DNA from: Phycisphaerales bacterium
GTDB taxonomy: Bacteria; Planctomycetota; Phycisphaerae; Phycisphaerales; UBA1924
Length of the DNA: 64,000 bases
NCBI GenBank assembly: GCA_016742075.1
Contig: JACVCL010000001.1
Span: 124,001-188,000 of the forward strand
Direction: 5' to 3'
Shown here: positions 582 to 20,939 of the stretch, in pieces
Layout: every line of letters begins with the position of its first letter
How positions within the stretch are numbered: position 1 is the stretch's first letter
Notes under the pieces: generated by a model
Databases searched by the model: none
Told to the model about the DNA's origin: nothing
What the model saw: the letters and a program-made list of their open reading frames with translations, nothing else
Position numbers and translations under genes: made by a program

Positions 582-658
582 GACCTTGACCTCCGTGACT
601 GATCGAGGGGCGGAGCAGAACGTGCGACGGCCGGGAGCGCCGAACGCCCCTCGGGGAT

Positions 659-1900: not shown

Positions 1901-1949
1901 CGCCTAAGCGTATCGTCGCCCCGCCGGACGGCGAGCGGGCCGATCGCGG

Positions 1950-2612: not shown

Positions 2613-2681
2613 CGCTGATTCCTTCTCGGTTTTCGGGGACCGGGGCCGGTCGACCCGCTGTTCCAGCCTAGGCTTCGATCG

Positions 2682-3506
2682 ATGCTGCGGCTCAGACGCA
2701 CGGTTCGGTTTGCGATCAACCCTCCCGGCACGGGCGTAACGTCGGGGAGCCCCAAGGGCCGGGGCTACAACGGCTATGCGGCGTCGCCGCCGATGGCCGG
2801 CCTTGGGCGGCATTACGAGATCGACGTCGAATGCCGCGGCGAGCCCGACGACGCCTCCTGCTACCTGCTGGACATCAAGGACATCGATCGCGCCGTCAGG
2901 GAAGCGGCCATACCGGTGATTGCCGCGGCCTGCGATCGCACCCCCGAGATCGAGCCCGGGCAGATTCTGCCGGACCTCGCCGGGCGTGTCGCCGGGCTGC
3001 TGGACGGCCGCGTCGAGCGCGTCCGGTGGCGGCTCAGCCCGTTCTATTCCGTGGAGTGCGCGATGAGCCAGAAAGACTTCGTGGTGCTGCGGCAGCGCTT
3101 TGACTTCGCGGCGTCTCACCGGCTGCACAACCCGGCGCTGTCGGACGCCGAGAACCGCCGCATGTTCGGCAAGTGCAACAACCCGACGGGGCACGGGCAC
3201 AACTACCAGGTCGAGCCTGCGGTGGCCGTGAAGATCTCGTCGGGGGGCCAAGCCTTCACTCTCCTCGACCTCGAGCGTCTCACCGACGCCGTGGTCATCG
3301 AGCGATTCGACCACCGGCATCTGAACTCGGATGTGCCGGAATTCACCCCGCCGCGGGGGCTGATCCCGAGTGTCGAGAACATCGCGAGGGTGTGCTTCGA
3401 CCTCCTGGCGCCGGAGGTCCGGGCGGCGTCCGGGGGGGCGGCCGAGCTGAGAGAGGTGACCGTCTGGGAGACCGACCGCACGTGCGCCACCTACCCGGCC
3501 CCGTAA
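2682..3506 (+). CDS. Tandem 6-pyruvoyl-tetrahydropterin synthase/QueD-like protein
   Basis: Two PTPS/QueD-type domains in one 274-residue chain. The C-terminal domain (about 130-274) is intact: FAASHRLHNP and GKCNNPTGHGHNY give the three Zn-binding His and the catalytic Cys, FDHRHLNSD the catalytic Asp-His, and VWETDR the substrate Glu. The N-terminal domain (1-128) keeps the fold pattern (GLGRHYEIDVEC, LLDIKDIDRAV, SPFYSVE) but lacks the Zn His residues and the Cys, so it is probably structural. The motif is closer to PTPS than to E. coli QueD, so queuosine and tetrahydropterin pathways are both possible. nadB starts 13 bases after the stop. The start has only a weak ribosome binding site. 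Confidence 0.85.
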   Translation: MLRLRRTVRFAINPPGTGVTSGSPKGRGYNGYAASPPMAGLGRHYEIDVECRGEPDDASCYLLDIKDIDRAVREAAIPVIAAACDRTPEIEPGQILPDLAGRVAGLLDGRVERVRWRLSPFYSVECAMSQKDFVVLRQRFDFAASHRLHNPALSDAENRRMFGKCNNPTGHGHNYQVEPAVAVKISSGGQAFTLLDLERLTDAVVIERFDHRHLNSDVPEFTPPRGLIPSVENIARVCFDLLAPEVRAASGGAAELREVTVWETDRTCATYPAP

Positions 3507-3519
3507 ACTAGGACCGCGC

Positions 3520-5199: not shown

Positions 5200-6917
5200 G
5201 ACGGCATATCCGAGCACGAGCGGCTCCCGGGCCGCCGCCCGGCCGTGGCAATTGGCCGCGCAGCGCGTTCACGCTCGTCGAGATTCTCGTGGCGATCGGC
5301 ATCGTCGCGGCGCTCGTGGTGCTGGCGACGCCCGCGCTCATCAGCTCGTCGGGCGAGCGGCGGCTGAGAGCGGCGGCGGACCAGGTGTCGGCTGCGCTCG
5401 CCGATGCACGAGCCCGGGCGATGAGGGACGACCGCGCGTACGCGGTCGTCGCCGCGCCTTCGGCCGACGGACGCCGCCTGGTGCTCAGAGCGTTGGACGC
5501 CCGCTCGGCAGAAGCCGACCACGCCGGCCGAGAACTGCTGGTCTTGGGAGATGAGTTTTCGCTCACGGCCGGTGCCGCGACCGACGAATCCGCCACCGGC
5601 GCCCCGGACGGCGCACGGCGATCGAGCGATAGCGCGGCCGTGCCGATCCTGACGTTCCTTCCCGACGGCACCGCCATCGGGCCGCCCTCGCTGGACCTGA
5701 CCGACTCGCGTTCTCGACGCGCCACACTTGCGCTGAACCGCCTGACCGGGCGTCTGACACCGGCGGGCTCACCGCCCCGCGAACAGAAGCCGCCGCCCGC
5801 GGCCGCGGCGACCAAACCCCCTCGGTCGCCCCGTCGGGCCCGACACCGGAGGGATCGGGGCCGGGGCGCCCTGCTGCTTGAGCTCCTGATCGCGATGGCG
5901 ATTTTCATCTCGGCGGGGCTCATCATCCTCGGTGTGCTGCGTCAGGCCTCGGCGTCGGTCGCCGCGGCGATCACGCAGCAGCGCGTGGCGGACCTCGCCC
6001 GTTCCGCGGCGGCACGCATCGAGGCCGGGCTTGATTCTCCGGGAACACTGAACGGGCCGGTGCGCGCGGGCGCGTTCCCGGCGGCCCCCGCCGGATACAC
6101 CCTCGACATCGGCACCGAGCGGTCGGGGTTTCCCGGGCTGACCCTGCTGACCGTGCGCGCGGCGCGGCCCGATCTGCAGGGGGCACCGAGCTACACCGTG
6201 CGCCAGATGGTGCGTCTGCCCTCAGACCGCCCGAGCGCCCGCGCCCCCCGCCGCCGGAGGAAAGGGCCGGGGCATCGCCGCGGATTCACGCTGATCGAAG
6301 TGCTGATCGCCCTGGGCCTTCTGCTGGTGCTCACGGCCGCCGTGTCGGTGTTCCTCCGCGACCTCGAGGATCGGCGCAGATTTCTGACTGAGCGATCGAC
6401 CGATGCCCAGACCGCGGCGCTGCTGTTCGATTCTCTGGACCGTGAACTCCTCGGCACTTTCGTGGCCGGCCGATCCGGCCCCGGGGTCGCGGGCGACACG
6501 TCGCGGCTTACGGTGCTGACCCGTGGTGTGATGCCGGCGGCGGCCGGCGCTTCCGACGTGCAACGCTCGGAGTACCGCTGGGACCCGGCTGCCGCCTCGC
6601 TTGCGGCCCGCCGGACCGACGCGGCCGGTCCGGCTGCGGGAGACATGGAACTCCTTTCGACGAGGGTCGCCAAGGCTCGATTCCGATACCACGACGGTGT
6701 GGCGTGGCTCGACGCCTTCGACAGCCGTTCAGCCGGACGACTGCCCGTAGCCATCGAAGTCTCTCTGTGGTTCGGCACGCCCGGAACGGCGGTGAGCGAG
6801 GACGCGCCGCCGGACCGGCAGCGAACCATCGCCGTCGCGGATCCGGCCGCCGATCCCGGGGCCGGCTCCGCGGGACGCTCGTCGCCGTCCGCAGGGGCCC
6901 GGGAGGCTCTGCCATGA
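5196..6917 (+). CDS. gspHIJ: Three pseudopilins (GspH-, GspI-, GspJ-like) in one reading frame
   Basis: One uninterrupted 573-codon frame holds three prepilin modules in the canonical H-I-J order. Module 1 has its processing site at A24/F25 (FTLVE, Glu29) and a GspH-type domain to about residue 200. Module 2 has G224/A225 (ALLLE, Glu229) and a GspI-type domain. Module 3 has G363/F364 (FTLIE, Glu368) and a GspJ-type domain containing FRYHDGVAWL. Modules are joined by Pro/Arg-rich linkers that look like prepilin leaders. No ATG, GTG or TTG lies in frame between V149 (5640) and module 2; module 3 could start separately at ATG 6207, giving a 26-residue leader. The start overlaps the nadB stop and the end overlaps gspK, both as ATGA. 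In the T2SS, H, I, J and K form the pseudopilus tip. Confidence 0.88.
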   Translation: MRRHIRARAAPGPPPGRGNWPRSAFTLVEILVAIGIVAALVVLATPALISSSGERRLRAAADQVSAALADARARAMRDDRAYAVVAAPSADGRRLVLRALDARSAEADHAGRELLVLGDEFSLTAGAATDESATGAPDGARRSSDSAAVPILTFLPDGTAIGPPSLDLTDSRSRRATLALNRLTGRLTPAGSPPREQKPPPAAAATKPPRSPRRARHRRDRGRGALLLELLIAMAIFISAGLIILGVLRQASASVAAAITQQRVADLARSAAARIEAGLDSPGTLNGPVRAGAFPAAPAGYTLDIGTERSGFPGLTLLTVRAARPDLQGAPSYTVRQMVRLPSDRPSARAPRRRRKGPGHRRGFTLIEVLIALGLLLVLTAAVSVFLRDLEDRRRFLTERSTDAQTAALLFDSLDRELLGTFVAGRSGPGVAGDTSRLTVLTRGVMPAAAGASDVQRSEYRWDPAAASLAARRTDAAGPAAGDMELLSTRVAKARFRYHDGVAWLDAFDSRSAGRLPVAIEVSLWFGTPGTAVSEDAPPDRQRTIAVADPAADPGAGSAGRSSPSAGAREALP

Positions 6918-8284
6918 CCCGGCGCTCGGGATTGGTGATCCTCGCGGTGCTGCTGCTGGTGATGATCGGCGCGCTGGTCGGCACCACCGCCCTGCATCTG
7001 GCTCGGGCCGAGTCGGCGGGGGTTGCCGCGTCGCTCGGCCGGGGCCAGGCCCGCGCGCTGGCGTGGTCGGGCGTTCAGATCGCGCTCGCGGAACTGGCGG
7101 ACCAGCGTCCGGCGCTGCTCCAGGGGCGCCAACCGCGGCTGACCGAGTCCGCCGTCGTGTTCGACGATGGCGGCCGACGCGGCATGGTTCGACTGGCGGG
7201 CGGTCCCGCTTCGGAGGCCGGGAAACTCCCGCTGAATCTGGCTTCGGCGTCCATGCTCGAGGCGCTGGGCGCCGAGCCGACGGTGGCTCAGGCCATCGTT
7301 TCGGCGCGGGCCGCGCGTGGCGGGCAGTTCGATTCCGCCGAGGATCTGCTCGGCGTCGAAGGCGTCACGCCGGAGCTTGCGGACACCTTGGCCAACGCCG
7401 TGTCGGTGTTCCACGCCGATCCGAACCAGCAGGCCGGCCTCGGCGGAGGCAGGCGCTTCGCCGGCGAGCCGAGGATCAACGTCAACACCAAGTGGTCTGA
7501 CGATCTCCGTGCCAGGCTGGAGCGCCGGCTGGGCGGCCAGGCGGCGGACGCCGTCAAGCAGCTCATGGCTTCGGGCCGGACGTTCCCGGCGATACGCGAC
7601 ATCGTCGACTCGATGGTGGCTCTCAAGCTGGATGTGGGCCGGCAATGGCCCGAGGCGCTCGACGCGCTGGCCACGACCGACGAACCCTTCCTGTACGGGC
7701 TGGTGGACCTTCTCACCGCTCCCGCCGAGGTGCTCGCCGCGCTCCCCGGGCTCGACCGCTCGGCGGCCGACCGTATCGTCGCGGCCCGCACGACCCTCGA
7801 CGATCGCACGCGCGCGACCGTGGCGTGGCCGGTCATGGAGGGCATCGTCGAACCGGGGCGTTTCGCTGAAGCCGTTGATCGGCTGACCACGCGGTCGCTT
7901 CAATGGCGGGTGCGGGTGGAAGCAGGCTTCGCCACCGGAGACTCTCTGGCATCGCGGCCGGACCTTCGCGATCGCGTGGTTCTGGAGGCGGTGCTCGACG
8001 TCTCGGGCCCCGTGCCGCGCGTCGCCTACCTGCGCGACCTGACCATGCTCGACACGCTGCGCGCCCTCACCCGCGCCGGGGTGCTCGCCGAGACCAGTCA
8101 GCCCGAGCCCCGCGAGCAACCGGCCGCCGAGGGCACGCCGCCGACCGGGGCGGCCTCGGCACCTGACCCCGGTTCAGGCGGGCCCGAGGCCGTGCCCCCT
8201 CCCCAACCCCTCGATCGCCGACTCGGACGGTGGAGAGCCCCGGTGTCGCTGCCGGCCCCGCCCGGGCCGTCGTCGGGTATCTAG
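6914..8284 (+). CDS. gspK: T2SS minor pseudopilin GspK
   Basis: Large minor pseudopilin that caps the pseudopilus tip together with GspI and GspJ. The 456-residue product begins with a short basic leader (MTRRSG) and a hydrophobic helix (LVILAVLLLVM) without the usual Glu at +5, as is normal for GspK. The central part has two helix-hairpin-helix-like stretches: PLNLASASMLEALG with its 'QFDSAEDLL' continuation, and LTAPAEVLAALPGL. INVNTKW is also typical. The C-terminus is Pro-rich. The ATG at 6914 overlaps the stop of the H-I-J frame as ATGA, and gspL starts 8 bases after its stop. Confidence 0.88.
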   Translation: MTRRSGLVILAVLLLVMIGALVGTTALHLARAESAGVAASLGRGQARALAWSGVQIALAELADQRPALLQGRQPRLTESAVVFDDGGRRGMVRLAGGPASEAGKLPLNLASASMLEALGAEPTVAQAIVSARAARGGQFDSAEDLLGVEGVTPELADTLANAVSVFHADPNQQAGLGGGRRFAGEPRINVNTKWSDDLRARLERRLGGQAADAVKQLMASGRTFPAIRDIVDSMVALKLDVGRQWPEALDALATTDEPFLYGLVDLLTAPAEVLAALPGLDRSAADRIVAARTTLDDRTRATVAWPVMEGIVEPGRFAEAVDRLTTRSLQWRVRVEAGFATGDSLASRPDLRDRVVLEAVLDVSGPVPRVAYLRDLTMLDTLRALTRAGVLAETSQPEPREQPAAEGTPPTGAASAPDPGSGGPEAVPPPQPLDRRLGRWRAPVSLPAPPGPSSGI

Positions 8285-8291
8285 GAAGGCC

Positions 8292-9977
8292 ATGCTCTCC
8301 CAGCCGATCCTGGTCATCGCCCTGGCTGAAGGCCGCGTCACGGCAGCGTCGGCCGTTGCCGACCGCACCGGTGTCCGCATCACCGCCTCGGTGCGGGACC
8401 TTGTGCCGCCGGAGGCTTCGGATCCCCGGAGCGCCGGGCGATGGCTGAAGAGTCTGCTCCGGGGGGCGGGCATTTCGGCACGGCGGGCGGTGTTCGTTCT
8501 GCCTCGTGGCGAGGCGGTCGTGAAGCGGATCGGGTTTCCCGCCGTCGCCGACCTGAAGGCGGACCTGCCGGGCATGGTCCGCCTTCAGATGCTCCGCCAA
8601 CTGCCCTTTAGCCCCGACGACGCCGCGATCGACTTCATGGTCTTCGAGCCCGAGGCGGCGGTGGCTGGCACCCCGGCGGCCCCCGCTCCAACGGCCGGTT
8701 CTTCCCCCACCCCCCCCTCTCTCCCCGCTCTCCCCACACTTCCGGCCGGCCTGTCGGCCACCGCCGACGGATCTCATGCCGATGGCTCCCAGGTCGAGGT
8801 GCTTGCCGCGGCGGTTCCCGGAGAGCGGATCCGCTACCTCCGCGATCTGTCGAAGGCGGCGGGGCTCAAGCTGGCCCGGGTGTGCCTGGCGTCGACGGGT
8901 ATCGCGACGCTTCTCCGGGCCGATGACGGGGCCGGGTCGCGTCCCGTGATGGGTCTGGCGGCGTCGCCCGCGGGGGTGGAGTTCGTGGTGCTCGATAGGG
9001 GCCAGCTGGTGTTCTCCCGCCGGGCCGATCTGGCCCTGCCGACCGACGGGCTCGAGCCCGACGCCGAGGACCTTGCGCGTCGCACCGCGACCGAGGCCAA
9101 ACGAACGTGGACCAGCTATCGGGTGATCGAGAACGCGCGGCCGGCGGAGGAGATTCTGGTGCTGGGCCGTGGCGAGCACGCCGAGCGTGTGGCCCGGCTC
9201 TGCGCCGACGCCGCCGAGGCCCCGGCCCGAGCATTGGGGGCGGCGGGAGCGGTTCGGTTTGACCGCGGAGCGGCCGACCCGGATGCGGTCGACGAGTTGC
9301 TCCCCCTGGCGGGCGTGATCCTTGAGGGCGAGCTCCGCTCCGGCGGCATCGACCTCGCGCATCCGCGGCGGGCTCCGGACCGACGGGCGCGGATTCGCCA
9401 GCTGGCGATGGGCGGGGCGCTGGCCCTGCTGCTGGTCGTCGGCACCCTCTTCACCCTAGGGCTCTCGGGGCTCCGGTCCCTTGATGACGAGGTGAAGCAA
9501 CTCCGCGAGGACCGAAACGAGGCCGCATCGCGTCGAAGCGAAGCGCTCCGGCGCGCGGCGCGTGTCGAACACCTCGTTCGGTGGGAGGACTCCTCGCCAG
9601 ACTGGATCGGCCACCTGGTGAATATTCACGGATTGCTCCCCAGCCCGGACCAGTTGCTCGTCGATCAGCTTGACGGGGCCGCGGACATGGCGGTCACGTA
9701 TCCGCGGCAAGCGACGTTCGATCCCGCGCGTTACGCGTCGGCGTCGTCCATCAAGCTGAATCTCACGGGTCGATCGGTGTCCCAGACCGTGTCCGACGCG
9801 ACGCGCGACCGATTTGTCCGCGACCGCTCGTACCGCGTGGCCCCGATCGGGCTCGATGGCGGTCTCGTCCGCGACGAGAAGTACCCCCATGCCTGGGGCA
9901 TGTCGCTGACGTCGTCGGAAGCGGAGCCGGCCGATGCCGCACCGGCGGCGGCACAGCCCGGAGGGCCCAAGAAGTGA
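8292..9977 (+). CDS. gspL: T2SS assembly protein GspL (PilM/PilN-like)
   Basis: Bitopic assembly-platform protein. The 561-residue product has a cytoplasmic actin-like part (about 1-360) resembling PilM/GspL, with RAVFVLPRGEAVVKRIGFP and 'LPFSPDDAAIDF' typical of the subdomain that handles the ATPase side. One membrane helix follows at about 374-396. The C-terminal periplasmic part begins with a short heptad-rich coiled coil (LDDEVKQLREDRNEA) and continues with a PilN-like ferredoxin-fold stretch. A Pro/Ala/Ser-rich insert lies near residues 120-155. It follows gspK by 7 bases, with AGGAAGG just before the ATG, and its stop overlaps the next GTG start. Confidence 0.82.
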   Translation: MLSQPILVIALAEGRVTAASAVADRTGVRITASVRDLVPPEASDPRSAGRWLKSLLRGAGISARRAVFVLPRGEAVVKRIGFPAVADLKADLPGMVRLQMLRQLPFSPDDAAIDFMVFEPEAAVAGTPAAPAPTAGSSPTPPSLPALPTLPAGLSATADGSHADGSQVEVLAAAVPGERIRYLRDLSKAAGLKLARVCLASTGIATLLRADDGAGSRPVMGLAASPAGVEFVVLDRGQLVFSRRADLALPTDGLEPDAEDLARRTATEAKRTWTSYRVIENARPAEEILVLGRGEHAERVARLCADAAEAPARALGAAGAVRFDRGAADPDAVDELLPLAGVILEGELRSGGIDLAHPRRAPDRRARIRQLAMGGALALLLVVGTLFTLGLSGLRSLDDEVKQLREDRNEAASRRSEALRRAARVEHLVRWEDSSPDWIGHLVNIHGLLPSPDQLLVDQLDGAADMAVTYPRQATFDPARYASASSIKLNLTGRSVSQTVSDATRDRFVRDRSYRVAPIGLDGGLVRDEKYPHAWGMSLTSSEAEPADAAPAAAQPGGPKK

Positions 9978-10942
9978 TCCCGCGGCGCCCAGGCCATCCC
10001 CGGGTCTGGTTGGCGGTGGGCGCATCGCTCGCGCTGGCGCTGCTGGTCTGGTGGACCTACGCCTCGAACATCAGCGGCCCGGCGGGCGAGCTCCGGGCCG
10101 AGCGGGAGCGGCTGATCGGGGAGATCACCTCCCTCCAGGGCGAGACGCGCAAGGCCCAGCCGGCTGTGCAGCGGCTGAAGACCGCGGCCGCCCGCACGCT
10201 GGGCAACTCGGCCGAAACGGTGGTGCACCGCGTCCGGCTCGCGCTCACGGCGGCCGGAACGGCGGCCAGGCTGTCGTCGGTGGCTTCCGATTCGCGGGCC
10301 CAGGCCGCGGTGCGCAACCCGGCGGAGTCGGTCCGCGTGTGGGGGCGCGACGCGCGGGCAGCGCCCGACTTCACCGTGGTCACCGGGTCGATGCGCGGCG
10401 AGGGCACCCTGGAACAGGCTCTGACAGCCCTGTGCCTCATCCAGTCGCAGCCCTGGATCAAGCGGATCAGTTCTGTTTCGCTTCGCCCGAGAGACGGTGG
10501 GCAGCGGGTCGAACTCCGTGTGTCGCTCTCGACCGTGTTCCTCGAAGACCTCTCGCCCAGCGAGGCGCCCGCCCCCTCGCCGGCAGAGCCGAAGCTCCTC
10601 GATCAGGTCCGCATGCTGGTCGCCCGCAACATGTTCGCGCCCCCCGCGGCCCCCCCGCCCCCTGCCCAGGTGCCCAAGCCGGAGCCGCCGAGCGGCCCGG
10701 CGTACGGCGACTGGGTGGTCACCGGCCTCGCCGAAGGGGCCGCGGGACCGGAACTTTGGGTGAGGAATGTGAAGGACAACCGGACCCAATCGCTGGCGCC
10801 CGGCGAAAAGCTCCTCGGGGCGGTGTTCGAGGGTCTTTCCCCCGATCGGGAGTCCGCGATCCTCCGGATCGATGCGGACCGATTTCTGATCTCGGTCGGC
10901 GATCCGGCCTCCCGGCGGGACAGAAAGCACGTCCCGAAGTAA
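9974..10942 (+). CDS. gspM: T2SS GspM/PilO-like protein with C-terminal GspC/PilP-like domain
   Basis: Inner-membrane protein of 322 residues that starts with GTG inside the gspL stop (GTGA). It has an N-terminal membrane helix (about 10-30), a coiled coil (about 38-70) and a PilO/GspM-like ferredoxin domain (about 75-185). A Pro-rich linker leads to a compact beta domain (about 235-315; GDWVVTGLAEG, LAPGEKLLGAVFEG, ILRIDADRFLISVGD) that resembles the homology region of GspC and PilP, which binds secretin N0. No separate gspC is present, so one chain may serve as both GspM and GspC. The domain assignment is by sequence pattern only. gspD begins 79 bases downstream. Confidence 0.75.
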   Translation: MIPRRPGHPRVWLAVGASLALALLVWWTYASNISGPAGELRAERERLIGEITSLQGETRKAQPAVQRLKTAAARTLGNSAETVVHRVRLALTAAGTAARLSSVASDSRAQAAVRNPAESVRVWGRDARAAPDFTVVTGSMRGEGTLEQALTALCLIQSQPWIKRISSVSLRPRDGGQRVELRVSLSTVFLEDLSPSEAPAPSPAEPKLLDQVRMLVARNMFAPPAAPPPPAQVPKPEPPSGPAYGDWVVTGLAEGAAGPELWVRNVKDNRTQSLAPGEKLLGAVFEGLSPDRESAILRIDADRFLISVGDPASRRDRKHVPK

Positions 10943-11021
10943 AGTGCCCGCGTCCGTGAGTGCGCGCCCGCCTCCTTCGAGGGGCGCCACGCCGTGCCCT
11001 CGCGGCGGAAGGAGCCGCTGG

Positions 11022-14000
11022 ATGCGCCATCACCTCGTGCGCCAACCGACCGCCGCCGCCCTGCTTCTGGCGGTGGGAGCCGCCTCGGGCCTGCGGGCCC
11101 AGGAGCCGTCCGGGCCCGCCCCGACGCCTCCGACGACCGCGGCCGCCCCTGCCCCACCTGCAGAGCCCGGCGCCGAGCCGGCTCGCCCGGCGCCGCCGCC
11201 GGCGACCGGCCCCGCACGGATCCGATTCGCGTTCAAGGACGCCCCGCTCGATCAGGTCGTGGACTTCTTCGGGCGCCAAGCCGGGCTTCCGGTGATCCGA
11301 CAGGCGGAGGCTCCGGCCGGGAGTGTGACGTTCATCTCGGCGTCGGAGTACGAACTTCCCGAGGCTCTGCGGATCCTCAACACGATCCTGCAGACCCGGG
11401 GCCTGATGCTCCGGCGCGACGAGCGGTTCCTGTATCTCCAGAAGCTGGAGAACATGAAGGCCGCGCCGGTGCCGACGTTCCCCAAAGGCCAGGTGCCGCC
11501 GGAGGTGACACCGGACCAGATCATCAGCGCGGTCCTCCCGCTGAACAACGCCCGGGCCAAGTCGGTGGCCGAGCAGCTCGGGCAGCTCGTGGCCCCGTAC
11601 GGGGCGATCGTCGCCCTGCCCGAGCAGAACGCGGTGATCGTGACGGAAACCGCGGCGCAGGTGCGCCGGCTGCAGACGATCATCGACTCGATCGACGCCC
11701 GGCCGCAGTTTGAAGAGGGCGTCAAGCTGTTCCCCCTCCGCCACATCCAGGCGGCCGACGCTCTCCGCTCGCTCCGCGTGCTGGTGGCGGAGAAGAAAAC
11801 CACCGTGGTCATCGACAAGGACGGCAACCGCCGCACTATCGCCGAGGACGACATGACCGGCGTGCGGATGGAGGCCGACCCCCGCACCAACTCGATTGTG
11901 GCGCTCGGCCCCGAGGGCCGGTTGCGGACGATCGAGTCGCTCGTGCGCCTGCTCGATGTGCCCGACGACGGCTCCGGTGACTCGGCCCCGGGCGGCCGGG
12001 ATATCGCGGCGTTCGGAGTGGGCGCCATCAGCGCCGAGGACGCGGCGAGCCAGCTGACGAGGTTGTTTGCCCAGACTCCTGCCGACCGGCGGCCGGCGAT
12101 CTCGCCGGTCGGTCCGCTGCAGCGTGTCGTCGTGGCCGGAACCGTGGCGCAGACCCGCGACGCGGAAACCCTTCTCAAACAGCTCGATCCCACGGCGGCT
12201 CGGATCACGCCGGGGGGCGTCGCCGGGGCACTTCCCGCCGTCGGCGTGCGGACGTACCGGCTCGCCCACGCGCGGCCGGAAGAGATCTCCCGCACGCTCA
12301 GGGCACTCGCGTCGGTTCCGGCCGGGGGGGTCTTCGCGGTTCCCGGTGTGGCCTCGAGGCTCACGGCCGAGCCCGGCCCGGGCGACACGCTGGTGCTCAC
12401 GGGCCCCATCGCGGCCCTTGAGCGCGCCGACGAGTTGGTCGCCCAGCTCGACAAGGCGGCGGAGAAACCCGATGTCCAGACGTCGTTCGTCACGCTCCGG
12501 CACACGCGGGCCGATCGGATCCAGCCCGTGCTTTCGCGGCTGCTCGCTCAGAGGGCCCGGGCGCTCGGTCCGGCGGCCGAGCAGGCCGTCGACGTGCAGT
12601 CGGAGCCGGTGACCGGCCGGCTCATCGTGACGGCGCCCGCCGCGATCACCGGGTCGGCCAAGGAGCTTGCCGCGCAACTCGACGAGGCCGCCGGCGAACT
12701 GGCGAAGGCTCGCGAAGTACGGGTGGTGACCCTACGACACGCCGACGCGGCCGAGGTGCAGGCAAGCCTGGAGGGGACGATCAACGACCCGGCGTCGCCC
12801 GAAACGCCGCTGGTGATTCGTCCCGATCGCGCCGGAAACAGCCTCATCCTCCGGGGCACTCCCGCCCAGGTGCAGCAGGCCGAGACGCTCGCCGGCAGCC
12901 TCGATGCCGCGGCGGCCGCCGCCGGACGCACCCTGCGCACGATCACGGTCGACACCGCGCGCACCGACGCCGCGGCCCTCGCCCAGACCCTCAAGCGCCT
13001 GCTGGAGCAGCGCGGATCGGGACCGATCGAGATCATCACGATCGACGAACTGCGCAAACGGCAGACCAAAGAGCTCCCGCCGGCTCCGGCCGCCGATCCG
13101 AAGCCCGGGGCGATGCGCCCCGCCGAGCCCGCCCCGCCGGAGGCTCGCCGCGGCGTGCTTCTGCCGGCTCGGATCCGGCTGATCATCGGCTTCGTTCAGA
13201 CGGTCGCGACGGTGGTCGAGCCGGCCGCGGCCAAACCGGCCGCCGATGCGGGCGTCACCATCGCTGTTGACCCGGACACCAACACCCTGACGATCGTCGG
13301 GTCGTCGCGCCAGGCCGACGCCGTGGCTCGGCTGGCCGAGACCATCCAGCGGGAGCTCGTCGCCGAGCCCGGCAAGCTGCGGGTTGTTCGGCTGGGAGGC
13401 GGTTCCGATCCGGGCCAGCTTGCGGGGATTCTCAACGCGGCGTTCGGCCAGATCGGCCGCCGGTCGGCCGAGAACCCCGGTGGGTTTTCCGGGCGCGTGG
13501 GCGCCGTGGCCGACCCGCAGGGCGGCGCACTTCTGGTCGCGGCGAACGACGCCGACTTCGCGACGATTTCCCAGCTCATCACCGCGCTCGTCGGGCCCGC
13601 CCAGCCGAGCAGCCTGACCGTCAAGATCTACCCGCTCTCTTCGATTTCGGCCGATCGTGCGGCCGCCGCGGTCCGCGACCTGGCGTCCGCGTCGCCCCGG
13701 GGAGAGCAGGCCCGGCGGTTCCGACCCGCGCCCGGCCAGCCCCTCACGGTCACGATCACCGCGCCCGGCCAGCCCGACCGCACGGTGACACTCGATCCGG
13801 CAAGCGTCCGAGCCACCCCCGGGCCGAGCGCTTCGACCCTGATCGTCTCGGCCCCGGCCGAGGCCCTGCCACTCATCGACGGCTTCCTGGCCGTGCTCGA
13901 TCAGTCGCCCGCCGCGGCCGGCGTGGCCATCCGAACCTATCCGTTGGCCTCGGCCCAGGCGTCGGCGCTCGCCCCAACCCTGCAGCAAGCGTTCGACGCC

Positions 14001-17000
14001 GCCCGCGAGCGCGCCGGGGCCGACGGCCGCACACGTCCGCGGATTCTTGCCGACGACCGGACCAATGCGCTGCTCGTCACCGCGGGCGATGCCGACCAGG
14101 CCGAGCTTGCGCGGCTGCTGAAGCAGCTCGACTCGGCGGATCCGGGGCAGGCCCGCGCTCTGGCGATCCTGCCGGTGCAGGGGGGAGCAGCCGCCTCGGC
14201 GGTCTCGAGGATCGTTGAGCAGGCCGTGATCGGCAACGATCCGGGTCGCCGGTCGAAGGTGTCGGTGGCGGCGGACGACGCGATGAATCTTCTGATCGTC
14301 CGTGCGCCCGAGGCCGAGCTCGCGCAGGTGAAAGAGGTGCTGAAGGAGGTCGACCGGCCCGGCGCGGCCGAGTTGCCGGTGCGGACCGTCAAGCTTGAAC
14401 GGGCCGACGCGTCGCAGGTGGCCGGCGCGCTGCAGCGGTTCTTTGACGACCGCGCGCGGGCGGGCAGCCGGCCGGGACAGCGCGCCCAGCAGCGACGCGT
14501 GGCGGTGGTGGGCGACCGGCGCTCGGGCTCGGTGCTCATCGCCGCGGGCGACGCGGATTTCGACCTGGTGAAGGGCCTCATCGAGACGTTCGACCAGCCC
14601 CGGCCCGGCGCCGCGGCGACGCTGCAGTTCCGTGTCATACCGCTGGCCAACGCCCGCGTCGCGGAGGTTGCCGACGCCGTGACCTCGCTGGCCGGCGAGC
14701 TGCAGTGGATCAACGCCGGCGGCATGGGCCGCGACCCTGGCGATGGCATCGCCGACCGCATCACCGTGCGGAGCGACGCTCGCTCGAACAGCTTCGTGGT
14801 CATGGGCCAGGGCGAGTCGTTCACGACCATCGAGTCGATCATCCGCGCCCTTGACGTTCCCCGTCCTGACCAGTCGAAGCCCGCCGTCCGGGCCTTCAAG
14901 GTTGAGCGGGCCGACCTCGCCGTGGTCCGGCGCGCAGTCGAAGCGGCCCTCGGCGACCCTGCCAAGGCCCAGCGGTTCTGGGAGCAGCCCGATCCGACCT
15001 TGCTGCGGTTCGAGTCCGACCCTCGCACGCGATCGCTTATCGCCATCGGCCCCGAGCAGCAGATGGGCGCGGTGGCGGACCTCATCAAGACGCTCGAGGG
15101 CCAGGCGGCGGGCGGAGAGATTGTGGTCGAGACGCTGCCGCTGTCGTTCGCAGAAGCAGCGCGGGCCGCCGAGAGCCTGTCGCGTTTCTTCGCCGACCGC
15201 GCTCGCCTCGCCGGGCTGGACCGGCCCGCGGTGTCGGTGATCGGGTCGCGCGACGGCAACGCGCTGATCCTCACCGGGCCGAAGGACGAGACGCTGCTGG
15301 CCAAGGACATCCTTGCCCGGCTCGACGCCCCGGAGGCATCGAAGGATCGTGCCGTCGAGGTGCTGGCCCTCAAGCACGCCGATGCCCAGGACGCCTCGCG
15401 CGCCCTGACACTGCTCTTTGCCCCCTCCGGCGCCCAGGGGGATCGCCGGGTGACGATCACGCCGGACGTCCGGACCAACGCGGTGATCGTGAGCGCCCCC
15501 AAGGCCGCCATCGCGCAGGTGCAGGCGCTTCTGGCTCAGATCGACGCGCCGCCCGCGGGCGTCGCGGTCAGGCTCCGCTCATTCGGGCTGAAGGCCGGGC
15601 GCGCCGACGACGTCGCGCGCACGCTGCGGGAAGCGCTGGAGCTCACCGACACCGCGACAGGACGGGCCCGTGCGATGCAGGGCAACGTCCGCAAGTTCAT
15701 CGCCGGCGACGGCGGCCAGCCGGTGCAGGTGCGGGCCCAGGTGACGGCCGACCGCCGGAGCAACACGCTGCTGGTCTCGGCCGATGAGCCCTCGATGAAA
15801 CTCGTCGAACAGCTCATCGCCACGCTCGACGAGCAGCCGACGGTATCGGAGACCGAGTATCGCGTGCTCGGGCTCCGGCACGCCGTGGCGTCCGACATCT
15901 CCTTCACGCTTCGGTCGCTGCTGGAGCGTCGCGCCCGGTCCGGACAGGCGAACGTCCCGCCGGCGTCGGTCTCGGCGTCCTCTCGCGACAATACCCTGCT
16001 GGTGGCCGGCACGGCCGAGCAGATCGCCGAGGTCGAGGCCATTCTGCGCCAGATCGACGTCCCGACGAAGTCCAATCGCTCCACCGAGTTCATCGCCCTC
16101 CGCTTCGCCGACGCCGCGGCGGTACAGGAAGCGTTGTCGATGTTCTACGGGAGGTTCGCGTTTGAGGCCGAGACGCCCGGGGCGCGGTCGGTGTCGATCG
16201 TGGCCGACAAGGCCACCAACTCCCTGGTGGTCTCCGCCGGCGAAGACGAGTGGCGGGGCATCCGCGAGCTTCTGGCCAAACTCGACAGCGAGCAGTACGA
16301 CGCCTCACGCCAGCTCACGGTGATCGCCCTCCAGCACGCCGACGCCGCCAGTGTGGCCCGAGCGCTGCAGTCGGCGTTCGAGGCCCCGCTCCGCGCGGAG
16401 GTCGACCGACGCCGCGAGGACGCACGGCAGCGCGGCGGACGGGATGGTGAGCCGTCGCTGCCCGCGGTGCTCGTGCAGGGTCAGGACGTGGTTTCGGTGT
16501 CCGCCGAGCCGATCACCAACTCGCTGATCATCTCCGCGTCCAAGCGTGAGACCGAGCGCATCTCGGCCGTTGCCCGCTCTCTCGACAAGCCTGATTTCGC
16601 CGACCTTCCGCCGCCGCGGCTCATCGCGCTCCGGGCCGGGAAAGCGTCGGACCTCGCCCGCTCGGTGCGGGCCATGTACGAGGCCGACGCCCGCACCGCT
16701 CCCGGGCGGGGGGCGGGCGTACGGGGTGTGGTGATCACCGGCGACGACACGACCTCCACGCTCATCGTGCGAGCCCCCGACGAGCAGTTCGCCCAGATCA
16801 AGGCCCTGGCCGACGCCCTCCAGCAGCAGGGCGACATGGCCCGGGTGTCCGTGCGCATCATCACGCTCCGGCGGCAGCCGGCGGCTCGCGTGGCGGCCAC
16901 GGTCCAGCGGGCGTTCGCCGAGGCCGCCAAGCAGAACGGCGAGCCGCTCGCGGTTGAGGCCGACCGCCGATCGAACGCGCTCGTCGTGGCGTCGTCGCAG

Positions 17001-20000
17001 CGGTTGTTCGAGCAGATCGAGAGGGTCGTCAGGGAGCTGGAAGGCACCGGGGACGCAGATGGGCCGCAGGGGGCCCTTCCGCAGGGGCTGCCCAACCAGG
17101 GCCTGTTCATCATCGACCTGAAGAACACCTCGCCCGAGGACGCCCGGCGCGTGCTCGAATCGCTCGGGATCACGCGCGAGCAGCCGGCCGACCGGCCCGG
17201 GCTGGTCTCCGAGCCGGTCACGGTTGCGGCGCTCACGAGCCGCCGGGCGCTGGCGGTGCTGGCCGCTCCCGCCGACGGACGGGTGATCGAAGACCTGGTT
17301 CGGTCGATCGACGCCGAGCCGGTCCTTGCCGAGCAGGAAGTGGCGGTGCTGCCGCTGAAGACCGCCGAGGCCTCGCGGGTGGCCGCGGCGATGAAGGCGA
17401 TGCTCTCCCCGGCTCAGGCGCAGGGTCAGTCCAAGCTCGCCGCTTCGCTCATCGAGCAGGTCCGCAGGCTGAGGGTGCGGGGCGATGGCACCGGCCCCGC
17501 CGACAAGGACCCCCTGGTCGATCTCTCGGTGCCCGTCCGCGTCGACGCCGAGCCGCAGACCAACTCGGTGGTGGTGACGACCTCCGCGGCCAACATGCCG
17601 GCCATGCGCGAGCTGGTCTCGCTGCTCGATCGCCTGCCCGTCGGCGATGCCGTGGTGCTCCGGATCTTCCACCTCACGAACGGCTCCGCGACGAGAACGG
17701 CGGGGGTCCTCCGCCAGCTCTTCGCCCAGGGCGAGGCCATCCGGCGCTCGCCGAGCAGCCGGGCGGTCACCGAGCCCACCACCGAAACGGGCCGTGCCCT
17801 CGGCGGCGAGGTCGCGGTGGCCGTCGACGATCGCACGAACGCGATCATCGTCACGGGGCGCGAGGAGTCGGTGGCGCTCGCCGAGGTGCTGGTCCGACAG
17901 CTGGACTCCGACGAGGTCGCCAACTGGATCGAACCGCGTGTGCTGCCGCTCCGGCACGCCGATGCCGTCAAACTGGCCGCGACGCTGAACCAGGTGCTCG
18001 TGCAGGGCTTGGGCAACACTCCCGAGGCCGCGGCCCTGCAGGCGCAGGTCGGCCGCATCAGGGTGATGAAGTCCGGCGGCGAGGGCCAGAAGGACCGGGC
18101 GATCGAGGCCAATCTGTTCGCCCCGATGACCCGGCTGCAGATCATCGCCGAGCGGCAGCTCAACGCCCTGATCATCCTCGGCAGCCCGGCCAACGCCGCG
18201 GTCGTGGAAGAACTGGTCCGCATGCTCGACGTGGAGGCCGCGAACCGGGCCGACGCGGTGCGTGTGTACCCGCTCAAGTTCGCGGCGGCCGACCGCGTCG
18301 CGGTGCTGCTGGAGTCGCTCTTCCGCGAACAGGCCCGGCGCGAGACCCTCCGACCGGAGGACGAAGTGATCGTCCGCCCCGACCCCCGGACGAACACCCT
18401 GGTCATCGCGACCAGCGCACGGAGCTTCGCGGTGGTCGAGGGCCTGCTGAAGAATCTCGACCGCGAGGGCATGGTGCCGACCGTCGGCCTGCACCTGGTC
18501 CCGGTCGGGAACAACGATGCCCGCCAACTCGCCCCCAAGATCGAGCGGCTGATGCGGGACCGGATCGCGGCCACGGCCGGATCGGCGCTCGCGTCGCGCG
18601 ACATCGTTTCGGTGCAGGCCGATGAGGCAACGAACTCGCTCATCGTCGCCGCGTCGGACGAGAACCTGGCGTTGGTCAAGGATCTCGTGGACACACTGTC
18701 CCGGGGCGACAGGGCGGCCGGGCAGCAGATGGAGGTGTTCTCGCTCCGCTCCGCCAAAGCCGTGGACCTCATCCCGATCCTCTCCGAGCTGTACGTGAAC
18801 GAGGTGAACCGGACGCGCGGCCAGGGCACCCTGCGGGTCCGCGCCGACGAGCGCCTGAACGCGGTGGTGGCGACCGGGACCGAGCCGGACCTCGCCCGCA
18901 TCCGCGAGCTGATCGAGCGGCTCGACGGCGGCGCCGTGGCGTCAGTGGGCGAGATCAGGATCGTCCCGCTCAAGAGTTCCAACGCGCTCGAGATGGTGAA
19001 CCTGCTCGACAACGTTCTCTCCGGGCGGCCGCTCGGCGGGCGCGGGCCCGCGTCGCGGCAGTCGGCGATGCTCCGGTTCGTCCGTTCGCAGGCCGCCGAC
19101 AGGCTCGGCCGCGAGAAGGGCGGCGAGGCCACCGAGACCGAGGTCTCCGCCGCGATCCGCGAGCAGGTGACGCTGACGCCCGACCTGCGCACCAATTCGG
19201 TCATTGTGAGCGCTCCCCCGGCGATGATGGTGCTCATCGACTCGCTGATCGCCGATCTCGAGGCCTCCGCCGCGGGTAACCGGCAGATCGCCGTGTTCAA
19301 TCTCGAGAACGCCGACGCCCAGAACATGGCCGAGATTCTCAAGGAGCTCTTCAATCTCCGCCAGCAGGGAAATCTGTTCGTGCTCGTGCCCAGCGGCGGC
19401 GCCCGCAGGCAGGAACCCGGCGCCGCGCCCGCGGCGGAGGGCGCTGCCCCCCCGCCGCCCGCGCCCGCCTCGGCCGGTGCGCCCACGGCGTTCGGTGACA
19501 TGTCGCTCTCCGTGGTGCCCGACGAGCGGCAGCAGCTGTCGATCACCGTCGACGCCCGCACCAACTCGCTGCTGGTCTCCGGCACACCCCAGTATCTCAA
19601 GCTGGTCGAGGACGTGGTGAAGAAACTCGACTCGCAGCGGGGCACCGAGCGCCAGCAGCTCACGTACGAGCTCAAAAACGCGCGGGTCGATGAGGTGGCG
19701 AGCGCCCTCAAGACCTTCATCCAGCAGGAGCAGGATCAGATTGCGCGAACGCTCGGACCCGATCGGGCGGGTGCCCTGCAGCGGCGTCTCGAGCAGGAGA
19801 TCTCGGTCGTCGGCGTGCCGGGCAGCCGGCGTCTGATCCTCAGCACCTCGCCCCGGTATATGGAGAAGGTGCTCGGGCTTGTGAAGGAACTCGATCGCGC
19901 CCCGGCCCAGGTGCTCATCCAGGTGATGCTCGCCGAGGTGACGCTCGACACCGAGGGCACGTGGGGCGTGGACTTCAGAGCGGGCCCGGCCGGGTCGCGC

Positions 20001-20939
20001 CGCGTGCAGGGCGGTTACACGGCTCAGGGAACGGGCGTGCTGACCAGCGTGGGCGTGCCGAACTTCTCGGTGAGCAGCCTCGACTTCTCGCTGCTCGTAC
20101 GGGCGCTCGAGGTGCAGGGCCGGCTCGAGGTGCTCAGCCGCCCGCAGGTGCTGGTGAACGACAACCAGAAGGCCCAGATCCAGGTCGGCGAGGAGATCCG
20201 CGTCGTCACCAACGTCGAACGGTTCGGCGGGCAGGGCAACACTCGGTCCGACGTCCAGCCGCGCCAGGTCGGTGTGATCCTCAATGTCACGCCGGCGATC
20301 AACGCCGACGGCTACGTCCGCATGGACATCGCCCCGGAGATCTCATCGGTCACGGCGCGCACCACCCAGGTGAGCTCCGACTTCGAGGCCCCGATCATCA
20401 GCCAGCGCAAGGCCGAGACCACGGTCACGGTGAAGGACGGCGAGACCATCGTGATCGGTGGCCTGATCCAGAACCAGGCCCAGACGCGAAAGTCCAAAGT
20501 TCCGATCCTCGGCGACATCCCGATCCTCGGCCTGCCCTTCAAGACCGAGAAGACCACCACAGCCAAGACCGAACTGCTCATCATTCTCACGCCGCGCGTG
20601 ATCCAGTCCGACCGCGATCTGCGAGACCTCAGCGAGGAAGAGATCGAGCGACTCACCGTGCCGCGCGACGTGAAAGACGCCCTCAAGAACAACGAATTCA
20701 TCGACTTCAGCAAGAGTCCGGGTGCTCCCGGCACGCCACGGCCCGATGAGCGTCCGCCCCGCCGCACCCCGAAGTGGCGCGACGTGACGCCCGCGTCCCC
20801 GACCGCCGCTCCGCCGGTCGAATCGCCCGACGCACCCGAGGAGCCCGACGGCCGGCGTTCCACGACCGATCCCTCCCCAACCCCGCCGCCCCCCCCTGGC
20901 GAGCCGCCGCGCACCATGCGCAACGGGGGCCGCCCGTGA
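11022..20939 (+). CDS. gspD: Giant type II secretin GspD with about 32 N-domain repeats
   Basis: Outer-membrane secretin, the exit channel of the T2SS, but about 3,305 residues long against 600-750 for usual GspD. A signal peptide ends near AQ at residue 27. A Pro/Ala-rich linker leads to N0 (about 66-150; RIRFAFKDAPLDQVVDFF). About 32 tandem secretin N1/N3-type repeats follow (about 163-2963). The secretin barrel domain is at about 2964-3195 (VLIQVMLAEVTL, LSRPQVLVNDNQKAQI, VKDGETIVIGGLI, KSKVPILGDIPILGLPF, TELLIILTPRVI). A Pro-rich tail of about 105 residues closes it. The ATG at 11022 has GGAAGGAG 7 bases upstream; an earlier in-frame start (10944) lacks this. There are no stops or frameshifts across 9.9 kb. 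Its stop overlaps the start of a lipoprotein gene. Confidence 0.95.
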   Translation: MRHHLVRQPTAAALLLAVGAASGLRAQEPSGPAPTPPTTAAAPAPPAEPGAEPARPAPPPATGPARIRFAFKDAPLDQVVDFFGRQAGLPVIRQAEAPAGSVTFISASEYELPEALRILNTILQTRGLMLRRDERFLYLQKLENMKAAPVPTFPKGQVPPEVTPDQIISAVLPLNNARAKSVAEQLGQLVAPYGAIVALPEQNAVIVTETAAQVRRLQTIIDSIDARPQFEEGVKLFPLRHIQAADALRSLRVLVAEKKTTVVIDKDGNRRTIAEDDMTGVRMEADPRTNSIVALGPEGRLRTIESLVRLLDVPDDGSGDSAPGGRDIAAFGVGAISAEDAASQLTRLFAQTPADRRPAISPVGPLQRVVVAGTVAQTRDAETLLKQLDPTAARITPGGVAGALPAVGVRTYRLAHARPEEISRTLRALASVPAGGVFAVPGVASRLTAEPGPGDTLVLTGPIAALERADELVAQLDKAAEKPDVQTSFVTLRHTRADRIQPVLSRLLAQRARALGPAAEQAVDVQSEPVTGRLIVTAPAAITGSAKELAAQLDEAAGELAKAREVRVVTLRHADAAEVQASLEGTINDPASPETPLVIRPDRAGNSLILRGTPAQVQQAETLAGSLDAAAAAAGRTLRTITVDTARTDAAALAQTLKRLLEQRGSGPIEIITIDELRKRQTKELPPAPAADPKPGAMRPAEPAPPEARRGVLLPARIRLIIGFVQTVATVVEPAAAKPAADAGVTIAVDPDTNTLTIVGSSRQADAVARLAETIQRELVAEPGKLRVVRLGGGSDPGQLAGILNAAFGQIGRRSAENPGGFSGRVGAVADPQGGALLVAANDADFATISQLITALVGPAQPSSLTVKIYPLSSISADRAAAAVRDLASASPRGEQARRFRPAPGQPLTVTITAPGQPDRTVTLDPASVRATPGPSASTLIVSAPAEALPLIDGFLAVLDQSPAAAGVAIRTYPLASAQASALAPTLQQAFDAARERAGADGRTRPRILADDRTNALLVTAGDADQAELARLLKQLDSADPGQARALAILPVQGGAAASAVSRIVEQAVIGNDPGRRSKVSVAADDAMNLLIVRAPEAELAQVKEVLKEVDRPGAAELPVRTVKLERADASQVAGALQRFFDDRARAGSRPGQRAQQRRVAVVGDRRSGSVLIAAGDADFDLVKGLIETFDQPRPGAAATLQFRVIPLANARVAEVADAVTSLAGELQWINAGGMGRDPGDGIADRITVRSDARSNSFVVMGQGESFTTIESIIRALDVPRPDQSKPAVRAFKVERADLAVVRRAVEAALGDPAKAQRFWEQPDPTLLRFESDPRTRSLIAIGPEQQMGAVADLIKTLEGQAAGGEIVVETLPLSFAEAARAAESLSRFFADRARLAGLDRPAVSVIGSRDGNALILTGPKDETLLAKDILARLDAPEASKDRAVEVLALKHADAQDASRALTLLFAPSGAQGDRRVTITPDVRTNAVIVSAPKAAIAQVQALLAQIDAPPAGVAVRLRSFGLKAGRADDVARTLREALELTDTATGRARAMQGNVRKFIAGDGGQPVQVRAQVTADRRSNTLLVSADEPSMKLVEQLIATLDEQPTVSETEYRVLGLRHAVASDISFTLRSLLERRARSGQANVPPASVSASSRDNTLLVAGTAEQIAEVEAILRQIDVPTKSNRSTEFIALRFADAAAVQEALSMFYGRFAFEAETPGARSVSIVADKATNSLVVSAGEDEWRGIRELLAKLDSEQYDASRQLTVIALQHADAASVARALQSAFEAPLRAEVDRRREDARQRGGRDGEPSLPAVLVQGQDVVSVSAEPITNSLIISASKRETERISAVARSLDKPDFADLPPPRLIALRAGKASDLARSVRAMYEADARTAPGRGAGVRGVVITGDDTTSTLIVRAPDEQFAQIKALADALQQQGDMARVSVRIITLRRQPAARVAATVQRAFAEAAKQNGEPLAVEADRRSNALVVASSQRLFEQIERVVRELEGTGDADGPQGALPQGLPNQGLFIIDLKNTSPEDARRVLESLGITREQPADRPGLVSEPVTVAALTSRRALAVLAAPADGRVIEDLVRSIDAEPVLAEQEVAVLPLKTAEASRVAAAMKAMLSPAQAQGQSKLAASLIEQVRRLRVRGDGTGPADKDPLVDLSVPVRVDAEPQTNSVVVTTSAANMPAMRELVSLLDRLPVGDAVVLRIFHLTNGSATRTAGVLRQLFAQGEAIRRSPSSRAVTEPTTETGRALGGEVAVAVDDRTNAIIVTGREESVALAEVLVRQLDSDEVANWIEPRVLPLRHADAVKLAATLNQVLVQGLGNTPEAAALQAQVGRIRVMKSGGEGQKDRAIEANLFAPMTRLQIIAERQLNALIILGSPANAAVVEELVRMLDVEAANRADAVRVYPLKFAAADRVAVLLESLFREQARRETLRPEDEVIVRPDPRTNTLVIATSARSFAVVEGLLKNLDREGMVPTVGLHLVPVGNNDARQLAPKIERLMRDRIAATAGSALASRDIVSVQADEATNSLIVAASDENLALVKDLVDTLSRGDRAAGQQMEVFSLRSAKAVDLIPILSELYVNEVNRTRGQGTLRVRADERLNAVVATGTEPDLARIRELIERLDGGAVASVGEIRIVPLKSSNALEMVNLLDNVLSGRPLGGRGPASRQSAMLRFVRSQAADRLGREKGGEATETEVSAAIREQVTLTPDLRTNSVIVSAPPAMMVLIDSLIADLEASAAGNRQIAVFNLENADAQNMAEILKELFNLRQQGNLFVLVPSGGARRQEPGAAPAAEGAAPPPPAPASAGAPTAFGDMSLSVVPDERQQLSITVDARTNSLLVSGTPQYLKLVEDVVKKLDSQRGTERQQLTYELKNARVDEVASALKTFIQQEQDQIARTLGPDRAGALQRRLEQEISVVGVPGSRRLILSTSPRYMEKVLGLVKELDRAPAQVLIQVMLAEVTLDTEGTWGVDFRAGPAGSRRVQGGYTAQGTGVLTSVGVPNFSVSSLDFSLLVRALEVQGRLEVLSRPQVLVNDNQKAQIQVGEEIRVVTNVERFGGQGNTRSDVQPRQVGVILNVTPAINADGYVRMDIAPEISSVTARTTQVSSDFEAPIISQRKAETTVTVKDGETIVIGGLIQNQAQTRKSKVPILGDIPILGLPFKTEKTTTAKTELLIILTPRVIQSDRDLRDLSEEEIERLTVPRDVKDALKNNEFIDFSKSPGAPGTPRPDERPPRRTPKWRDVTPASPTAAPPVESPDAPEEPDGRRSTTDPSPTPPPPPGEPPRTMRNGGRP
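11508..19910 (+). repeat. Array of about 32 secretin N-domain repeats inside gspD
   Basis: Protein-level tandem repeat with a mean period of about 88 residues. Each unit begins with a strand and helix such as 'VRTYPLASAQASALAPTLQQ' and ends with a strand of the type D-x-R-T-N-S-L-x-V-x-(A/G), then a helix ending in 'LLxxLD'. I counted 32 of these second-strand motifs by eye, for example DPRTNSIVALG, DDRTNALLVTAG, DARSNSFVVMG, DKATNSLVVSAG, DPRTNTLVIAT and DARTNSLLVSG. Several units carry long loop insertions, notably those near 13,030-13,250, 17,400-17,530, 19,030-19,160 and 19,380-19,500. The units differ clearly from each other, so this is an old, diverged expansion rather than a recent DNA duplication. 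Confidence 0.88.

Follow-up and report, generated by a model that had tools for sequence, protein, structure and literature searches.

How many ring domains can a secretin carry, and what would a very long one build in the cell envelope? The question is raised by the window analysed here, a stretch of 64,000 nucleotides from a Phycisphaerales bacterium, in which an earlier note had described a gene for a GspD-type secretin with one N0 domain, about 32 further N-domains and one barrel. The N-domains of secretins form stacked rings (PMC5745081), and secretins of type II secretion systems (T2SS) are described with four N domains altogether (PMC5646249).

Domain Organisation of the Giant Secretin

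The gene occupies positions 11022–20939 of the plus strand and encodes 3305 aa. No internal stop was found in its translation, which bears out the claim of a complete 9.9-kb frame. The ATG start codon at 11022 is immediately preceded by GGAAGGAG, and the stop codon ends at 20939; the longest possible frame opens earlier, at a GTG at 10944. The GC fraction at codon positions 1, 2 and 3 is 0.741, 0.503 and 0.895.

The protein begins with a signal-peptide-like stretch (residues 1–27, 11022–11102), judged by eye from the translation. The following N0 domain (about residues 69–146, 11226–11459) is a weak but consistent assignment at the level of sequence: PF21305 matches residues 71–129 with an E-value of 0.0036 and 17.6 bits, below the 27-bit cut-off, and phmmer aligned residues 69–314 with solved XcpQ N0-N1-N2 pieces and residues 69–254 with GspD 3ezj, with E-values of 4e-7 to 1e-5. 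Profile searches then place 32 Secretin_N (PF03958, N1/N3-type) domains at residues 170–2963 (11529–19910), with 951.5 bits in total and 27 stretches passing singly. The barrel, PF00263, lies at residues 3028–3195 (20103–20606; 168.1 bits, cut-off 27.5) and was also recovered by the fold search. A low-complexity, proline-rich C-terminal tail, together with the stop codon, takes up 20682–20939. A custom HMM likewise found 32 N-domains, a count that is not independent since this model was seeded from the 32 PF03958 places; a broader model with a lenient threshold gave 34. Thus, the domain composition claimed earlier is supported by profile search, with an N0 that scores weakly. Adjacent N-domains are joined by linkers of 4–18 residues, bar two (96 and 55), and domain 7 (12960–13346 by the custom HMM coordinates) contains a long internal insert. 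The draft genome holds 39 Secretin_N matches, 32 of them inside the giant frame.

Assignment to the Type II Secretion System

With residues 2201–3305 as the only query, the NCBIfam GspD model TIGR02517 gave 481.6 bits (cut-off 351.35), and the PilQ model TIGR02515 gave 218.2 bits on the window protein, under its cut-off of 284.35. AlphaFold2 modelling of residues 2210–3220 as a monomer (26 sequences) yielded a pLDDT of 70.7 and a pTM of 0.33; single domains of this model are usable, and the arrangement between them is not. All 48 Foldseek matches of the model at E ≤0.001 are secretins or N-domain pieces, with T2SS secretins ranked first (best E 9.9e-28). VIA-align gave Z of 12–14 to secretins and about 10 to lone GspD/XcpQ N-domains. 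A search with the C-terminal part matched 950 of 72,556 plasmid records, all with less than 60% identity, and the five among the matches listed are ordinary secretins. There is strong support for the giant being a T2SS-type secretin.

The gene neighbourhood, with gspK, GspL/M-like genes, gspF and gspG, also fits the earlier claim of GspD identity. Upstream of the giant, on the same strand, lie a GspH/I/J-like frame (5196–6917), gspK (6914–8284, its frame opening at 6704), a gene for a GspL/PilM-like protein (8292–9977) and one for a GspM/PilO-like protein (9974–10942). The GspK protein was recognised by PF03934 (33.4 bits, cut-off 24.2), whereas NF037980 gave only 23.4 bits against 130. The GspL/PilM-like protein is a conserved neighbour that scores 26.7 bits with the pilM model TIGR01175, far under the cut-off of 133. 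The major pseudopilin GspG (36–662; TIGR01710, 106.2 bits, cut-off 88.85) and GspF (659–1900; PF00482, 173.8 bits, cut-off 25.2; TIGR02120, 301.2 bits, under the cut-off of 424) are encoded on the minus strand. In relatives the layout is gspF-G-HIJ-K-L-M-giant gspD, all on one strand, and 29 of 32 locus sets around relatives' giants show at least one of these T2SS neighbours. The opposite orientation of gspF and gspG in the window thus indicates a local rearrangement. Within 36–5199 these two genes are cut off from the remaining operon by three genes, peroxidase-like, NadB-like and 6-pyruvoyl-tetrahydropterin-synthase-like, the last named by eye. The 5196–6917 region is a single open frame of 573 aa in which profile searches found three prepilin-type N-termini. 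The matching frames of relatives are mostly shorter (147–431 aa), so GspH, GspI and GspJ are probably encoded by separate genes there.

No gspE was found in the operon, and like the GspF score under TIGR02120 this counts against the T2SS reading. The genome, a draft of 3.07 Mb, contains 14 matches to the T2SSE-family ATPases (PF00437); the five that were scored are all under both the GspE and PilB cut-offs and near both. This number of ATPases suggests several type IV-filament-like systems.

A Putative Inner-Membrane Anchor

The GspM-like protein encoded directly upstream was modelled with AlphaFold2 from a 22-sequence alignment (mean pLDDT 87.5, pTM 0.56). The predicted fold opens with a long helix at the N-terminus, followed by a core like that of PilO/GspM and a C-terminal domain resembling the HR domain. 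Using Foldseek, the core was matched to PilO 2rjz_A (TMt 0.58), and the C-terminal domain to the GspC HR domain 3oss_C (TMt 0.75, rmsd 2.3, E 0.023), the PulC HR domain 6hcg_e (TMt 0.68, E 0.063) and PilP 2y4y (TMt 0.50–0.62, E 0.12–0.19). A PDB profile sequence search with this protein found no GspC or PilP match up to E 10. Pfam T2SSB was detected in five of 22 family members (best E 0.0033), and Pfam gave nothing relevant on the window protein itself. The HR domain is therefore a putative one, proposed from the fold search, in which the E-values are weak (0.02 to 0.19).

HR domains are binding partners of N0 in the cognate secretin (PMC9239104). With an HR-like domain encoded next door, the giant would thus be anchored through N0 at the inner membrane, and its barrel would sit in the outer membrane. 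With the same weak E-values in view, the arrangement that the models make most likely has the 32 domains between the two membranes.

Distribution of Giant Secretins among Relatives

Secretin_N matches were counted in an order-level sample of 61 genomes, comprising the own genome, its family and its order. At least 30 matches were found in 35 genomes, the own one included, and the remaining 26 have 1–11. The 29 full giants of the order are single frames of 3103–4999 aa with 30–50 domains; in G027, G028, G051 and G058 the array is distributed over more than one frame. One genome (G060; contigs C34 and C113) has two giant frames, of 4234 aa and 3710 aa, the second ending at the contig end. Elsewhere in the class, G101 encodes a protein of 6165 aa with 62 domains, or 65 by a lenient count. 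The giant form is thus found widely, with up to 62 domains, and some lineages encode it as two or three genes; this goes beyond the earlier note.

Among 198 genomes sampled across the class, some of them shared with the order-level set and with 28 first-look candidates scored per large genome, 72 had at least 24 Secretin_N matches. Several ordinary secretins can reach this proxy jointly, so it may overcount giants; G222 has 24 matches, yet the frames listed there are all of 447–1153 aa. Across 294 genomes sampled from the phylum, 22 of them members of the class and with 19 candidates scored, none of the frames listed outside the class exceeds 2701 aa.

An alignment search with the C-terminal part found 464 relatives, of which 80 were kept as loci; the named ones are mostly Phycisphaerales and Phycisphaeraceae MAGs. 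The first of them (L097) shows 65% identity over the best segment and encodes 3306 aa with 32 domains. Frames of at least 3000 aa run past the locus edge in 49 loci, 11 frames are closed (3297–3809 aa), 15 are shorter (537–2904 aa) and cut at the edge, and five loci are fragmented. The public records behind four loci (L126, L135, L164 and L174) bear the names Vicinamibacteraceae, Leptolyngbya, Cyanobacteria and Chitinophaga pinensis and carry Phycisphaerae-type giants; these MAGs are probably mislabelled.

GspK is matched strongly (at least 236 bits) in 32 of the 35 long-array genomes, versus one of the 26 others. Of the long-array genomes, G021, G028 and G016 lack this match, the last holding just a piece at the end of a contig; the genome with a strong gspK and no long array is G005, where this gene lies near a contig end. 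On contig C15 of G046, the strong gspK match is located about 19 kb from the giant gene and does not adjoin it.

An assembly or frame artefact has to be weighed, as the own genome is a draft of 250 contigs and the frames are broken in the records G051, G218, L107 and L163. At the DNA level the giant gene contains a single tandem array (18-nt unit, 2.8 copies), and its short direct-repeat families have copies that share 63% to 85% identity with the reference copy. Repeat DNA so diverged makes assembly collapse or false expansion unlikely. Single-frame giants also occur in one-contig assemblies (G036, G062 and G090), the frames of 60 of the 80 loci reach 2900 aa or more, and the domain order and repeat positions are conserved between species. 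Together with the 35 long-array genomes, this makes an artefact very unlikely, with a probability close to nil.

The earlier note had named relatives with normal-length gspD at the same locus as speaking against its reading, and the outcome here is mixed. Such genes, encoding GspD of 708–859 aa beside gspK-like and GspM-like genes, do occur in two further families of the order, in six genomes (G044, G045, G048, G053, G056 and G057). Their barrels form a separate group in the barrel tree (86/85 support), so they look like another subtype, and with long arrays in 35 of the 61 genomes the finding stands.

Evolution of the N-Domain Array

Within the order, N-domains are recognisable by their position: the median score of the best match is 37 bits within the same protein versus 90 bits when the match is sought in another genome. 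Among 812 ordered pairs, the offset is retained in 87–100% for the last five domains, in 40–63% for offsets −6 to −28 (chance 2.4%) and in about 80% for the first two domains, counted from N0. The 1211 linkers of the 29 giants have a median of 7 aa, and 87% are of 12 aa or less. Domains 7–32 of the window protein match the final 26 of G011 and G016 in order, and G004 likewise with one exception, and domains 3–6 show register shifts between genomes. This indicates that within this order length has changed mainly near the N0 end.

The barrel tree placed giants and split forms in three clades, of 33 rows (100/100), 10 rows (90/89) and 10 rows (100/99), without a clear branching order between them; the last clade includes one long-branch ordinary secretin, and three ordinary secretins of the own genome also sit on long branches. 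Among the labels of this tree, "normal" is wrong for G060c (a contig-edge piece) and G218 (part of a frame-broken giant), and the rows called "mid" include one piece of G051 as well as barrel genes from split forms. With three genomes as queries, most N-domains were found to match in register within clades, whereas between clades the matches in register hardly go beyond one or two domains at the barrel end and a pair around −9/−10. The three clades therefore appear to have been lengthened separately from a shorter shared array; the alternative is a heavy turnover of domains.

The Proposed Stacked Tube, Its Length and the Periplasm

We consider it likely that the protein is a T2SS GspD whose N0 and 32 stacked rings form one long envelope-spanning tube. 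Alongside the observed domain content and order, operon, conservation and spread, we infer its oligomer, stacking, length and cargo. The periplasmic module of GspD would have been expanded from N0 with two or three ring domains to N0 with 32. Subunits would stand side by side (15, by analogy), each N-domain closing one ring, and the rings would stack in chain order into a single tube. Its N0 would be gripped at the inner membrane by the HR domain of the adjoining GspM-like protein, with the barrel in the outer membrane. Domain number would set the length of the tube and would change mainly near the N0 end.

Secretin barrels are about 10 nm high. At about 2.0–2.7 nm each, 32 rings would measure about 64–86 nm, or about 75–100 nm with N0 and barrel, and the 62 rings of G101, taken by themselves, would reach 124–167 nm. 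In known structures the N0-N1-N2 rings of XcpQ measure 80 Å, a 20 Å cone included (PMC5646246), and PulD with the PulC HR domain extends about 20 nm into the periplasm (PMC6882859). Ring stacking and a length of 80–100 nm are plausible by analogy, on the ring heights of other secretins, and the channel may be several times longer than any described so far. With their 30 to 62 conserved ring domains, such arrays probe the limits of ring stacking.

It is also conceivable that the barrel and the last few N-domains make up a normal secretin, the rest hanging loosely or folding back on itself as a chain, or forming a cage, within a periplasm that is no wider than usual. The three ordinary secretins of the same genome would suit such a chain, as would the AlphaFold2 model, which at a pTM of 0.33 gives no reliable domain arrangement. 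The linkers are short, though, each position is conserved across genomes, unlike drifting interchangeable beads, and the predicted HR–N0 contact would hold the opposite end at the inner membrane, so that a chain without stacking seems unlikely, though it keeps some weight.

Inside the stacked tube, which remains the preferred structure, a GspG pseudopilus would act to move folded cargo from the periplasm outward; giant secretins raise the question of how a pseudopilus could work over such a distance. The same tube might instead serve the uptake of macromolecules or the extrusion of fibres, for example of planctomycete surface structures. Planctomycetes of another class bear fibre-carrying crateriform structures and import macromolecules (PMC5394234), the GspL is weakly PilM-like, and the ATPases of the own genome score near both GspE and PilB. 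In the same source, however, the crateriform structures keep the two membranes close (PMC5394234), and the word "secretin" is absent from its text; no link between these structures and secretins was found. Since, moreover, GspD and GspG exceed T2SS cut-offs, the PilQ model falls short and gspK is present, this role is improbable.

In Planctomycetes such as Planctopirus the periplasm can be greatly enlarged (PMC5394234), and the earlier note had linked the giant to a generally wide planctomycete periplasm. This link is doubtful. The own genome also encodes three ordinary secretins, with frames of 742, 1134 and 1191 aa and 1–4 Secretin_N stretches each, one of them with a gspK-like gene nearby, which makes a uniformly 75–100 nm wide periplasm unlikely. 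Perhaps the tube works in zones where the periplasm widens locally, or the ordinary secretins may be bridged in another way. No measurement of periplasm width for Phycisphaerae was found in the literature searched. The length of TamB (PF04357) was meant as an independent ruler of envelope width; a match was found in none of the 61 genomes of the order versus six of 14 control genomes, so this ruler yields nothing either way. Whether secretin length follows envelope width in planctomycetes is a question that the giants pose.

Split Giants and Possible Joints

In six genomes (G058, G089, G120, G135, G200 and G230) the same content is encoded by two or three consecutive genes. Seven junctions were taken in; the first G230 junction contains an assembly gap and was left out. 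At all seven, the downstream gene opens with a signal-like stretch, behind which the later part of the 72-position N-domain model is matched (from position 15–47 to 61–71; 4.6 to 24.7 bits). The upstream gene ends in a match to the early part (from positions 1–9 to 25–31) at six junctions, with 4.9–12.7 bits in four and merely 0.1 bit in two, and no early-part match was found at the upstream gene end of the first G089 junction. Ends away from junctions, that is, first-gene starts and last-gene ends, gave at most 2.5 bits, a control that is soft because the first genes open with long N-terminal extensions. Five of the seven junctions sit in one clade and may share an origin, which leaves perhaps three independent split events. 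When the junction ends were joined (last 150 and first 150 residues), the HMM gave two part-matches instead of one domain, as signal-like and low-complexity stretches intervene.

The simplest reading of these sequences is that two chains would complete one N-domain jointly, allowing the stack to run on. The insert in domain 7 of the window protein resembles the site where G058 splits into two genes, a correspondence obtained by domain matching to G037, of the same clade as G058. A relict signal peptide in this insert was sought with a 17-residue hydropathy scan, and no stretch above the threshold was found.

That other genomes encode the array as two or three genes could also mean that the giant is a precursor cleaved into pieces, each acting as its own ring stack. 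A strong hydrophobic signal-like stretch is lacking at the internal insert, and the 29 giants of the order are single frames; cleavage appears highly improbable. Returning to the jointly completed stack, it can be proposed tentatively, at rather less than even confidence, that Phycisphaerae secretin tubes are modular, with 30 to more than 60 rings and lengths of about 75–170 nm. Three or more lineages would have lengthened them separately, chiefly close to N0 in the case of the order studied, and the split forms would join two or three chains through trans-completed N-domains, the upstream chain supplying β1-α1 and the downstream one β2-β3-α2. Genes split inside a domain would be natural joints open to testing.

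Outside the class, the barrel-less N-domain proteins of G285 and G383 end in a first-part N-domain match. The barrel-less proteins read for a joint in trans were those of G285, G383, G432, G494 and G509; the barrel protein of G383, however, opens with a complete domain, and no such joint is proposed.

Comparison with Known Secretins

The earlier note knew of no described secretin of this size, and in the literature searched, with preprints and most subscription journals outside it, we likewise found no secretin with more than six N-rings and no paper joining Phycisphaerae and gspD. The five genomes of other classes of the phylum just named encode GspD of 1247–1342 aa with 7–9 N-domain matches, and in G285, G432 and G509 gspK-like and GspM-like genes lie near it, as with the giant. 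Unlike the giant, these GspD are much shorter, and the five genomes also have a separate barrel-less N-domain protein with a G/R-rich tail, which in G383 has 2690 aa and is encoded at a chromosomal site distant from the barrel gene. Barrel-less N-domain proteins with G/R-rich tails were seen at the loci L184 (1–20000, G383), L242, L243, L245 and L248, some of them near T2SS genes. The normal-length GspD of the six genomes of the order have 2–3 N-domain matches versus 32.

The secretin PilQ of Thermus thermophilus, which serves type IV pili and DNA uptake, shares additional stacked N-rings with the giant. It has 757 aa and six rings, measuring 350 Å with the barrel; this number of rings is called unusual, and the extra ones are taken as an adaptation to a wide periplasm (PMC5745081). 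It differs in having only six rings and in belonging to a pilus system, and the giant scores under the PilQ model cut-off. With GspD, PulD and XcpQ the giant shares a weakly scoring N0, Secretin_N, the PF00263 barrel and a C-terminal third that passes TIGR02517, and their systems share the neighbours gspF, gspG, gspK and GspL/M-like genes. Compared with T2SS that have a separate GspC, the HR-like domain is here fused to the GspM-like protein, and where GspD, PulD and XcpQ have three N-domains after N0, the giant has 32.
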